From IMG/VR virus record IMGVR_UViG_3300009130_000036, positions 1 through 59,907 of that record: a stretch of 59,907 nt of DNA; one strand, given 5' to 3'. Shown here in pieces: positions 43,553 through 46,733 of this stretch. The position numbers and the translations under genes are program-made. Position 1 is the first letter of the stretch; each line of letters starts with the position of its first letter. This DNA is from a virus. A model generated the notes under the pieces. That model searched no databases and was not told the DNA's origin. It saw nothing but the letters and a program-made list of their open reading frames with translations.

Positions 43553-44320
43553 ATGGCAAAAACAATATGTCCAATATGTAAAAAGGAATTTAGCTATATT
43601 AATTCTAGACATGCTAAAAAACATAACGTTACTCTTGAGGATCTAAAAAAATTAGATAGTTCAATAAGAACTTCACCTACTCAAGGTATGAAATTTAGCG
43701 AAGAAACTAGAAATAAAATGAGAATTAAGTCAGATAAGTATTACGAATCGTTACGTAAACAAGATAGGTCAGGGTCTAATAATTCTTTCTATGGAAAGAA
43801 GCATAGCGAAGAATCTAAATCTAAGATGGGAAGAGATATTACTGGAAAGAATAATCCATTTTATGGAAAGAAACATAGCGAGGCTTCAAGGCTGAAGATG
43901 AGTAAAACGCGTTCTGAATTAATATCAATAGGTAAACTTCATCCTTGGCATCATAATAATGGTAAATACACTTCTCTTAAATCTGGAAAAGTCGAGTCTT
44001 ATGATTCAAAACTAGAGTTATTTAGAATGATTCAAATGGATAATGATATTAACATAGTATCATGGACTAAAAAACATAATATAATAATTTCATATATTGA
44101 TATTGATGAAATAGAATGTAATTACGTTCCAGATTTCTTAGTAGAATATTCTAATGGATCTATTTATATTGAAGAAGTAAAAGGATGGGATGTTAAATCT
44201 GAATTAAAATTAAAAGGTCTTGTTAAATACTGTGAATTAAATGATATATTATATAAATGGCATAATCAGGACGATAGTATATTTTCTGAGTATAGAAAAT
44301 GGTTAAAAACTTTAAATTAA
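43553..44320 (+). CDS. Free-standing homing endonuclease, zinc finger plus NUMOD3 plus PD-(D/E)XK
   Basis: The 255-residue protein has three parts. Residues 6-24 form a C2H2 finger (CPICKKEFSYINSRHAKKH; C6, C9, H20, H24). Residues about 75-118 hold two NUMOD3 DNA-binding repeats, NNSFYGKKHSEESKSKM and NNPFYGKKHSEASRLKM. The C-terminal nuclease has a PD-(D/E)XK pattern: E155 (DSKLELF), P193-D194 (YVPDFLVEY) and E208-V-K210 (IEEVKGW). It should cut an allele lacking it and spread by repair. It ends 5 bases before the dehydrogenase gene, so its target is probably near that gene's 5' end. It is preceded by a late promoter. Confidence 0.8.
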   Translation: MAKTICPICKKEFSYINSRHAKKHNVTLEDLKKLDSSIRTSPTQGMKFSEETRNKMRIKSDKYYESLRKQDRSGSNNSFYGKKHSEESKSKMGRDITGKNNPFYGKKHSEASRLKMSKTRSELISIGKLHPWHHNNGKYTSLKSGKVESYDSKLELFRMIQMDNDINIVSWTKKHNIIISYIDIDEIECNYVPDFLVEYSNGSIYIEEVKGWDVKSELKLKGLVKYCELNDILYKWHNQDDSIFSEYRKWLKTLN

Positions 44321-44325
44321 AATAT

Positions 44326-45435
44326 ATGAATAACATTAAAAAAATCGGGTGCGTAGGTCAAGGCTTCGTTGGAACTGCCGTAAGAGAAAAATTAAAACAA
44401 TCGTTTAGCGTTTATACTTACGATAAGTTTAATGATGACAATTGTCTAATGTACACCGATGGTAAAGTAAACGAGCCGTTTAGATTAAGTTTAACTCCCG
44501 TTGTTGACAATTGTAGAGTTATTTTTGTATGTGTGCCTACTCCAATGTTTGAAGACGGAGAATGCGATACGAGTATTGTTGAATCGGTTATAGATGATAT
44601 AGCTAAAGAATGTGAAACGCTTGACAAGAGTGTTATAGCTATTGTTAAATCTACAGTCCCTCCTGGAACCACTGAGAAATTAAATTCTATTTCCAATAGA
44701 GTAACTGTTGGTTTCTCTCCAGAATTCTTAACTGAAGCTAATTCAATTGAAGATTTTGACAAGCAGGATAGAATCATCTTAGGATTAGATTATCTTGAAA
44801 TGGTAGATCCTGTTAACGAGATATTCAAAACATCATTTCCCGATGCAGAAATTATAATTGTAAATTCTAAAGAGGCAGAAATGACTAAATATATGACTAA
44901 CTTATTCTTAGCGACTAAAGTTAGTTTCTTCAATGATATGTATTCAATATGTGAGAAATTAGGTATTGAATATGATACTGTAATTGAAGCTACTTTACAC
45001 GATCCTAGAATTGGAAAGTCACACTTTATGGTCCCAGGGCCTGATGGTGATAGAGGCTTTGGTGGACATTGTTTCACTGAAAATCATGAAGTTCTAACTA
45101 TAAATGGATCCATTCCAATCTCTAAAGCATACGATATGCATACTAAAGGAGATCTTATTGAAGTAATTTCTTTTGATGATAAACTAACTACAGAAGAATC
45201 TAAAATAGTTAAAGAAGTTACTAAAAATAAATACGAAGGAGAGATAATATCTTTTAATTTAGATAATGGTTCAACTATTGAATGTACTCCTGAACACATA
45301 TTTCCAATACTTAGAAATGGAAAATTAACTCTTTCTTTTGCTAAAGATATTACAGAATCTGACGAATTTTATGATAGGTCTAATATAAATAATAAGAAAA
45401 CAATGACCTACGATGATACTAAAGTTTTCAGATAA
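44326..45435 (+). CDS. UDP-glucose 6-dehydrogenase N-terminal half fused to N-intein
   Basis: Residues 1-248 are a UDP-glucose/GDP-mannose dehydrogenase N-domain: IGCVGQGFVGTA (NAD loop), VIFVCVPTPMF, KSTVPPGTT, SPEFLTEANSIEDFDKQDRI, EMTKYMTNLFLATKVSFFND and GPDGDRGFGGH. At the catalytic Cys codon (45070) an intein begins, with block A CFTENHEVLTINGS and block B GSTIECTPEHIFPI. The N-intein has 121 residues and stops at 45435. The C-half is encoded at 46176. The start at 44326 is preferred over 44299, which lies inside the upstream endonuclease gene. The spliced enzyme would oxidise UDP-glucose to UDP-glucuronate, fitting the glycan cassette. Confidence 0.9.
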   Translation: MNNIKKIGCVGQGFVGTAVREKLKQSFSVYTYDKFNDDNCLMYTDGKVNEPFRLSLTPVVDNCRVIFVCVPTPMFEDGECDTSIVESVIDDIAKECETLDKSVIAIVKSTVPPGTTEKLNSISNRVTVGFSPEFLTEANSIEDFDKQDRIILGLDYLEMVDPVNEIFKTSFPDAEIIIVNSKEAEMTKYMTNLFLATKVSFFNDMYSICEKLGIEYDTVIEATLHDPRIGKSHFMVPGPDGDRGFGGHCFTENHEVLTINGSIPISKAYDMHTKGDLIEVISFDDKLTTEESKIVKEVTKNKYEGEIISFNLDNGSTIECTPEHIFPILRNGKLTLSFAKDITESDEFYDRSNINNKKTMTYDDTKVFR

Positions 45436-46174
45436 TAAATTAAATACTAAGACTCGAGTAGAGTTTAAATGTGATAAATGCGGCAAAATCGATAGTCGAT
45501 TAATGGTTTCTCATAATAGATTAAGGGAAAATAATAAAGATTTCGATAAAGATTATTGTCAAGATTGCTGGAGAGGAATTAGACAAAAAACTCCAGATGC
45601 TAAAAAAAGAATGTCAAACGCCATTAATAAAATGATTAAAAACGATCCTGATTGGAAAATAAGAAACTCTAATTCTAAGAAAGGAAAAATTAACATAGGA
45701 GAAAAGAATGGAATGAAACAATTAGATGCTAGAAAAAAAGCGTCTGAAACTAGAAAGAGCATGATGACAGATGAATTCAGATCTAAAATATCTGAATATA
45801 CTTCAAAAGCATGGGCAGATGGAAAATATGAAGGAGTTAGAGTTGGACAATCTAAGTGGCATACATATACTCATTCAAATGGAAAAGAATATAAAGTACA
45901 AGGAACATGGGAACTCGAGTTTATTAAATGGTTAGATAAATCAGACCTTCGTTTTGACTGTCATAAAGGTAGAATTTCATATAATTTAAATGGAAAAGAC
46001 AGATCATACTATCCTGACTTTTTTGTATATGAATGGGATCAATACGTAGATATTAAAAATGAATATCATTATAACCTTCAAAAAGACAAATTTGACGCAC
46101 TTTTTGAACAAGGACATTCGATACGAATTATATTAAAAGAAGAACTTGAAACATTAATTAAAAAACAACTATAA
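45413..46174 (+). CDS. Homing endonuclease between the split-intein halves (PD-(D/E)XK)
   Basis: The 253-residue protein has an N-terminal zinc ribbon (C20, C23, C49, C52: FKCDKCGK ... YCQDCWRG), a lysine-rich DNA-binding middle (residues 60-130), and a C-terminal nuclease with E167/E169 (GTWELEFIKWLD), P201-D202 (YYPDFFVYEWDQ) and D213-x-K215 (YVDIKNEYHY). It overlaps the N-intein end by 23 bases in another frame and ends one base before the C-half ATG. Its place in the intein matches that of an intein endonuclease that has become a separate gene. Reading +1 at the GTTTTC near 45424 would fuse it to the N-intein. Confidence 0.8.
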   Translation: MILKFSDNKLNTKTRVEFKCDKCGKIDSRLMVSHNRLRENNKDFDKDYCQDCWRGIRQKTPDAKKRMSNAINKMIKNDPDWKIRNSNSKKGKINIGEKNGMKQLDARKKASETRKSMMTDEFRSKISEYTSKAWADGKYEGVRVGQSKWHTYTHSNGKEYKVQGTWELEFIKWLDKSDLRFDCHKGRISYNLNGKDRSYYPDFFVYEWDQYVDIKNEYHYNLQKDKFDALFEQGHSIRIILKEELETLIKKQL

Positions 46175-46175
46175 T

Positions 46176-46733
46176 ATGAAAATAGTTAAAATTGAAAGGA
46201 GACATTTTAAAGGAGACGTCTATAACTTAGAACTTAATTCATCTAGACAAGAAGATGATTTATTCTGGGTAGAAGGAAAATCAGAAACAGTTACTCATAA
46301 CTGTTTCCCTAAAGATCTTTCTGCAATGCTTTATATCTCAGATTCTTTAAGATTATCAGTTCCTACTTTAGCAGGCGCTCAAATCACTAATCAGCTGGTT
46401 AGAAAAGATAGAGACTGGGAAAAGATGGAAGGTAGAGCAGTATCTAAAAGATCTGAAGACAAAATATCTTTAACAGATTTAGATAATGTAGTATTATTAG
46501 ATAGTCCAACATTTAGATTAAATCTAGAGGATCCAATGCAAATTTCTTATGAAGAATTAGACGGACACTGGAAACCTATTCAATGTGAGACTTTTGAACA
46601 TCCATTATCTGCTCCTTTAGAAAACGAGATATTATACATGTTTTCTGAAAAAGTAGGATATTACTTATCTCTACAGGAAGCAGGAGAGGATGATTCTTAT
46701 AAATTTATGGTAAACCAACAATTCGAAGATTAA
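46176..46733 (+). CDS. C-intein fused to UDP-glucose 6-dehydrogenase C-terminal half
   Basis: Residues 1-42 are a C-intein. Block F is GDVYNLELNSSRQEDDLF, and block G ends SETVTHN at residues 36-42, with N42 the splicing asparagine. The next residue is the +1 Cys (codon 46302-46304), which starts the extein CFPKDLSAMLYISDSLRLSV. After splicing to GFGGH this gives GFGGHCFPKD, the signature of the dehydrogenase with its catalytic Cys. The remaining C-extein of 143 residues includes the central helix (PTLAGAQITNQLVRKDRDWE); the last 90 residues are divergent from the usual UDP-binding domain. The spliced enzyme would have 391 residues, a normal length. Confidence 0.9.
   Translation: MKIVKIERRHFKGDVYNLELNSSRQEDDLFWVEGKSETVTHNCFPKDLSAMLYISDSLRLSVPTLAGAQITNQLVRKDRDWEKMEGRAVSKRSEDKISLTDLDNVVLLDSPTFRLNLEDPMQISYEELDGHWKPIQCETFEHPLSAPLENEILYMFSEKVGYYLSLQEAGEDDSYKFMVNQQFED

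Follow-up and report, generated by a model that had tools for sequence, protein, structure and literature searches.

We analyzed a 59,907-bp IMG/VR virus record (the window, by which we mean that whole stretch) in which the gene for a nucleotide-sugar dehydrogenase is broken, at positions 44326–46733, into three consecutive open reading frames (ORFs) that each lie in a different frame. The first, the N-half (44326–45435; alternative start at 44299), encodes the N-terminal part of the enzyme (N-extein) up to GFGGH, runs on into the N-terminal part of an intein (N-intein) and stops at TAATAA. The second encodes a homing endonuclease (HEN) and overlaps the end of the N-half by 23 nt. The third, the C-half (46176–46733), follows after a gap of 1 nt and encodes a C-intein (MKIVK...VTHN) and a 143-aa C-extein that opens with CFPKD; joined, the two exteins make a product of 391 aa. 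An earlier note on this DNA had described such a fractured gene, with the enzyme in two ORFs, the intein halves at the break and an endonuclease gene between them, and we found the features at the coordinates stated there and the joined length to be accurate.

A dehydrogenase gene split at its catalytic cysteine

The N-half matched the Pfam families UDPG_MGDP_dh_N (3e-22) and UDPG_MGDP_dh (2e-20; a profile that the earlier note had proposed as a check), and Foldseek of an AlphaFold2 model of the N-extein retrieved UDP-glucose/GDP-mannose dehydrogenases (E 1e-15 to 1e-12). With TIGR03026, the joined product scored 199.5 bits, above the curated cut-off of 189.8, and the N-half alone scored 182.8, below it. 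NAD-binding and central domains are present together with the catalytic Cys motif, placing the product among the UDP-glucose/GDP-mannose dehydrogenases. Thr110, Glu133, Lys188, Asn192, Cys249 and Asp253 (joined numbering), which we take to be the known catalytic positions of UDP-glucose dehydrogenases, are present in the joined product, and those in the N-half are invariant in our alignment A2. The UDP-binding C-terminal domain PF03720 was matched neither by the joined product nor by those intact viral relatives that were scanned; the substrate is for this reason uncertain, and the label UDP-glucose dehydrogenase, used in the earlier note, is too specific although the dehydrogenase domains and catalytic motif behind it are there. 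Since the gene neighbors in other phages are sugar-nucleotide epimerases and dehydratases, the enzyme likely has a role in building glycans.

The N-intein matched intein_Nterm (TIGR01445, 2e-11), and a profile built from ten joined N- and C-inteins of related loci retrieved inteins of solved structure, among them the split NrdJ-1 (1.7e-6) and gp41-1 (2e-4). Cys1 and the T and H of block B TxxH are invariant in 12/12 loci, and the V-N-L of the C-intein and the His-Asn directly before Cys are kept in 16/16, a count that is biased because several of the loci were retrieved by the pattern HNCFPKD. The residue set of a class-1 intein is thus present: Cys1, block B TxxH, terminal His-Asn and Cys +1. 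Alignment to the solved UDP-glucose dehydrogenases 3gg2, 3vtf and 4a7p identified this +1 Cys as the catalytic Cys of GFGGxCFPKD, so that both the split intein and its insertion at the catalytic Cys, proposed in the earlier note, are borne out. The whole element, 1,232 bp, lies immediately before that Cys codon (Table 1). Because the insertion is at the catalytic Cys, neither half would carry a complete active site, and the halves are predicted from their conserved residues to trans-splice to the 391-aa enzyme. In three related loci (L001, L002 and L003), the N-intein begins with CFPG, like the CFPKD that follows the C-intein, as though the target's opening residues had been mirrored there.

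Table 1. Positions of the parts of the split dehydrogenase locus in the window
Feature	Position	Strand	Evidence
N-extein, 248 aa; NAD-binding and central domains of a nucleotide-sugar dehydrogenase; ends GFGGH	44326..45069	+	Pfam, Foldseek
N-intein, 121 aa; Cys1, block B TPEH	45070..45432	+	TIGR01445 2e-11; conserved residues
HEN ORF, 253 aa; Cys-pair motif, NUMOD-like helices, PD-(D/E)XK nuclease of T7 endonuclease I type	45413..46174	+	Profile against PDB 1m0d, 9e-7; invariant residues; dN/dS
C-intein, 42 aa; block F DVYNLEL, ends VTHN	46176..46301	+	V-N-L and terminal HN kept; joined-intein profile
Conserved part of C-extein, CFPKD...GRAVSK; first residue is the catalytic and +1 Cys	46302..46448	+	Aligned to 3gg2, 3vtf, 4a7p and intact viral relatives
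C-terminal extension of the C-half, window only	46449..46730	+	No family match, no tblastn relative
Entire mobile element, 1,232 bp; from the Cys1 codon through the one preceding +1 Cys	45070..46301	+	Empty sites in L004–L007

The same layout in other viruses

More than 15 other viral contigs share the three-part layout, with matching ORF boundaries. The layout is complete in L001, L002, L003, L016, L018, L019, L047, L048 and L056, and among loci found later in, for example, L193, L197, L199, L222 and L225; partial copies are present in L013, L014, L046 and L054. In two loci the HEN is worn to a remnant (L017, 4673–4974; L049, 7219–7452) while both intein halves are intact, indicating that the split state outlasts HEN decay. 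At the same codon, intein-less relatives (L004–L007) have a precise empty site, with flanks that align without gaps, and the element that is missing there measures 1,232–1,235 bp in L001–L003. Pairwise dN/dS values (NG86) were below 1 in every part of the element (HEN: 0.15–0.21; N-intein: 0.25–0.68; C-intein: 0.18–0.53), with dS close to saturation, and on these estimates all parts of the element are under purifying selection.

The distribution of the element is patchy: in the tree of the exteins, split genes are interspersed among intein-less ones, and supported branches force at least 5 changes. Exteins and element have also diverged unequally (L001/L003: 81% nucleotide identity in the N-extein and 71% in the element; window/L002: 66% and 73%, respectively), which is suggestive of mobility and no firmer than that. 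A second type of dehydrogenase, with the motif CHPRD, is split as well (L202–L216); at 695–2869 of L209, and likewise in L210, its N-half has both the split intein and a one-piece, intein-like insertion of ~350 aa in the central domain, and these genes would thus hold two inteins each. At the sensitivity used, none of 50,697 GenBank phage records yielded a match to the split form; their matches to the N-half covered the enzyme portion only, and there was no match to the dehydrogenase C-half or to the intein. Weak C-intein-like matches (E 0.03–0.1) were seen in the terminase large subunits of three uncultured fecal phages (NC_055895, MT774379 and NC_055902).

One-piece inteins occupy the same codon in other genomes. 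Scanning for HNCFPKD gave 15 split and 5 one-piece inteins among the scorable viral cases; in cellular genomes, among the matches listed, there were no split and at least 58 one-piece inteins (all scorable cases), rows that are not phylogenetically independent. One-piece 'udp' inteins are known in UDP-glucose 6-dehydrogenase of Halobacteria and other prokaryotes (PMC4071816). They share with the window the insertion codon, right before the catalytic Cys, but unlike the split intein they are continuous, as in 58/58 scorable cellular cases among the matches listed. The nuclease differs too: three of the four viral one-piece inteins scanned contain LAGLIDADG domains (the fourth, L043, has none), unlike the HEN of the window. 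One halobacterial dehydrogenase (L136) has a frameshift within its intein, which is probably a decaying or mis-sequenced one-piece intein.

The endonuclease and its free-standing copies

A profile of the 12 HEN family members searched against the PDB matched T7 endonuclease I (1m0d, 9e-7) with its PDF...(D/E)xK core aligned. E167, D202, D213 and K215 are invariant in 12/12 members, the equation of E167 with the T7 endonuclease I glutamate having been made by eye. Phage_endo_I (PF05367) matched 6/12 members; the HEN of the window by itself had no PF05367 match. All 12 members also match PF24308 (DUF7487; best 2.4e-6), a family that may therefore contain homing endonucleases. In the AlphaFold2 model of the HEN (mean pLDDT 84), the C-terminal domain is restriction-endonuclease-like, and its fold neighbors by VIA-align were TnsA (Z 7.8, the nearest), I-Bth0305I (3r3p; Z 5.6, rmsd 2.9 over 73 residues) and Vsr (Z 4.9), where according to the tool a Z below 8 may reflect merely a common arrangement; plain Foldseek of the model gave nothing below E 0.02. 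We rejected assignment to the Vsr/EDxHD family: in place of an EDxHD motif with its catalytic His, all 12 members have D213-x-K215 after YYPDF, and the invariant Lys argues for PD-(D/E)XK rather than EDxHD. On its E...PD...(D/E)xK set and sequence similarity, the HEN is classed as a T7-endonuclease-I-like PD-(D/E)XK enzyme; the model suggests a fold shared with I-Bth0305I, and at the level of fold a kinship with Vsr/EDxHD is possible. The core is like that of T7 endonuclease I and PF05367, but the HEN has an added N-terminal region, with a Cys pair and helices for DNA binding, and is tied to a homing site. A related Phage_endo_I-type endonuclease lies inside the split major capsid gene of Bacillus phage SP-15 (L184, 25479–27996), where we saw no intein residues and Rfam gave no intron match.

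Scanning with the HEN alignment yielded 75 loci. Besides the split loci, many of these have no intein, and an intact dehydrogenase gene is followed directly by the HEN; this free-standing (intronless) layout was seen in 18 related viral loci. The catalytic-site motif beside such a HEN is often altered, for example to GYGGSCFVKD, GFGGSCFCKD, GFAGSCFIKD or GFSLSCFPKD. Among 90 distinct intact genes from dehydrogenase loci fetched with a query that stops before the motif, GFGGxCFPKD was altered in 17/18 of those linked to a HEN in comparison to 15/72 of those without one (Fisher 9e-9). Two pairs of closely related contigs locate the exchange. L232, with a HEN and a recoded motif, matches L271, with no HEN and the canonical motif, at 97.8% identity over 1.1 kb on the left and 99.6% over 3 kb on the right, and the two diverge sharply from 20–25 nt before the Cys codon to the final ~20 nt of the HEN ORF. 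L220 (free-standing HEN, recoded motif) shares 96.5% identity with L221 (split intein) as far as 20–25 nt before the Cys codon, and 88% past both elements. Judged from these alignments, the breakpoints lie where a HEN aimed at the insertion site would be expected to cut. In the HEN tree, a single clade of free-standing copies was rejected (AU p 0.0003), and the clade of the window has as its sister L198, a free-standing copy whose neighboring gene is recoded.

These sequence patterns make it seem that one HEN lineage attacks one target and that its carriers are protected in two ways, by insertion of the split intein or by recoding. We favor, with some reserve, the fuller statement that the lineage targets catalytic-Cys codons and that carriers escape self-cutting interchangeably, with a split intein at the cut site or with a recoded motif and the HEN downstream. 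It is possible, though we hold it unlikely, that the altered motifs instead reflect ordinary divergence, or the hitch-hiking of a divergent 3' end, and have nothing to do with protection from cleavage. Altered motifs do occur in genes without a HEN, the genes of L235 and L294 are alike throughout and differ only in the presence of the HEN, and pairing along the phylogeny was not significant (about 4 (4.2) of 7 pairs agreed and none disagreed; median p = 0.125; too few independent pairs). Divergence of this kind accords poorly, however, with the excess of altered motifs beside a HEN, with the variety of the substitutions (I, V, C or S in place of P; A, S or L in place of G) in a motif that is nearly universal elsewhere, and with the breakpoint that the two contig pairs share. 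Taken with the breakpoints and the HEN tree, the free-standing copies beside altered motifs also speak against the description in the earlier note of an independent endonuclease gene: the HEN belongs to the mobile element and is probably its driver.

Proposed homing and splicing, and known systems

We conclude, with a probability of roughly 0.86, that the locus is a mobile fractured-gene element whose HEN cuts the DNA of the catalytic-Cys motif, which spreads by homing, and whose host enzyme is restored to 391 aa by trans-splicing. The T7-endonuclease-I-like HEN would recognize and cut DNA encoding GFGGHCFPKD in phage nucleotide-sugar dehydrogenase genes. During co-infection, a cut in a genome with the canonical motif would be repaired from the occupied copy, so that N-intein, HEN and C-intein are copied in; alternatively, a recoded 3' end plus HEN would be copied into the cut. 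Since the insertion destroys the target, the carrier would be immune. Two polypeptides, dehydrogenase-N/intein-N and intein-C/dehydrogenase-C, would then be made; once associated, they would undergo class-1 trans-splicing with Cys1, the TxxH of block B, the terminal His-Asn and the +1 Cys. Carriers would thereby still make the enzyme and the insertion would be cheap, and, because the +1 Cys doubles as the catalytic Cys, a phage that lost the element imprecisely would be left with no working enzyme.

Several observations weigh against this conclusion. The C-intein alone matched no curated family. dS is close to saturation, and incongruence between the extein and element trees was not significant (AU p = 0.16). 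The pairing test described above had too few independent pairs, 15 altered-motif genes have no nearby HEN, and one HEN-linked gene (L290) retains CFPKD. Finally, the C-terminal extension, ~80–90 aa that were overlooked in the earlier note, is seen in no relative (no Pfam, NCBIfam or PHROG match, and no tblastn relative in the fetched loci or viral contigs); it is perhaps a fused orphan ORF, and such a window-specific tail could disturb the enzyme.

Genes in pieces can work without splicing, as the nrdA gene of phage Aeh1 keeps its function when split by mobE (literature cited in PMC3322345, PMC10448857 and PMC2988022), and the dehydrogenase halves might likewise assemble non-covalently with the intein pieces as inert tails. 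We regard this as very improbable, as both intein halves retain every splicing residue across divergent loci, are under purifying selection and stay intact in L017 and L049 despite the decayed HEN, and as the catalytic Cys would otherwise lie behind a 42-aa leader. Just as little credence is due to a regulatory device, the proposal of the earlier note that the split delays sugar-nucleotide synthesis by gating the enzyme until both halves build up. What favors it is only the logic that two polypeptides are required, whereas the three ORFs overlap or abut and are therefore probably co-expressed, TATAAATA (the T4-type late promoter) is no commoner than chance and sigma-70-like sites equal those in shuffles, split inteins of comparable type from metagenomes (gp41-1, gp41-8, NrdJ-1 and IMPDH-1) are among the fastest known (PMC7090010), and the same enzyme is unsplit in intein-less relatives. 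Control of the HEN or the C-half by a promoter or late promoter was accordingly rejected, since neither the TATAAATA at 45384 nor the TTGAAA/TATAAT pair that runs up to the ATG of the C-half exceeds chance. A broken gene or assembly artifact, that is, a single continuous HEN-containing intein with two frameshifts, can be dismissed in spite of the one-piece LAGLIDADG inteins that other viruses have at this codon and the one-piece inteins of many cells, since more than 15 other contigs have the three ORFs arranged alike, their start and stop codons falling at corresponding positions, with low dN/dS, and the HEN between the halves is of a different nuclease class from LAGLIDADG.

Two further features adjoin the element. 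A second, unrelated homing-endonuclease-like ORF (43553–44320; NUMOD3 motifs and a weak TnsA-like domain) ends 5 nt upstream of the N-half, so that an endonuclease gene lies on either side of the N-half. Exactly on the C-terminal splice junction sits a perfect 10-bp hairpin (GAAACAGTTA ctca TAACTGTTTC; 46284–46307), which is not kept in L001–L003; the window has only one other hairpin of this kind. An Rfam search of the window gave no match and hence no known intron or RNA element.

The arrangement is already known in kind. Genes fractured by a split intein that has an endonuclease gene between its halves, nrdA and nrdJ from ocean metagenomes among them, were reportedly described by Dassa et al. 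in 2009; the hosts are said to have been enzymes of DNA synthesis and repair, and half of the endonucleases Vsr-like. This family yielded the split inteins gp41-1, NrdJ-1, IMPDH-1 and NrdA-2. The locus in the window resembles them in that a split intein interrupts an enzyme gene of a phage and an endonuclease gene separates the two parts. It differs from the cases so reported in its host, a nucleotide-sugar dehydrogenase, and in its T7-endonuclease-I-like HEN with a catalytic Lys. With the free-standing phage HENs SegF, SegG and MobE and with collaborative homing (PMC2988022, PMC10448857), it shares a HEN near the target gene, co-conversion of flanks and overlap with the upstream ORF, but here the same HEN lineage is also found inside split inteins, and HEN-linked alleles alter the catalytic-site motif. 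We did not find this host gene, nuclease type or dual lifestyle in the literature searched; they may nonetheless be published.

The known fractured-gene hosts thus gain a sugar-nucleotide enzyme, and their drivers a nuclease of T7-endonuclease-I-like type; the new split inteins are candidate tools for protein ligation. As the nuclease lineage is found within a split intein, free-standing beside a recoded target and as a remnant, its gain, switching and loss can be reconstructed and tested, and the natural before/after pairs bear on the question of how a separate endonuclease gene gets inside a split intein. If carriers do escape in both ways, movement of free-standing HENs to and from the site would explain the origin of fractured genes and split inteins, and pressure from selfish DNA would rewrite residues that are otherwise almost universal in the active site of an enzyme. 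The prediction from the recoded motifs is that a selfish gene has imposed active-site changes on some enzymes of phages.
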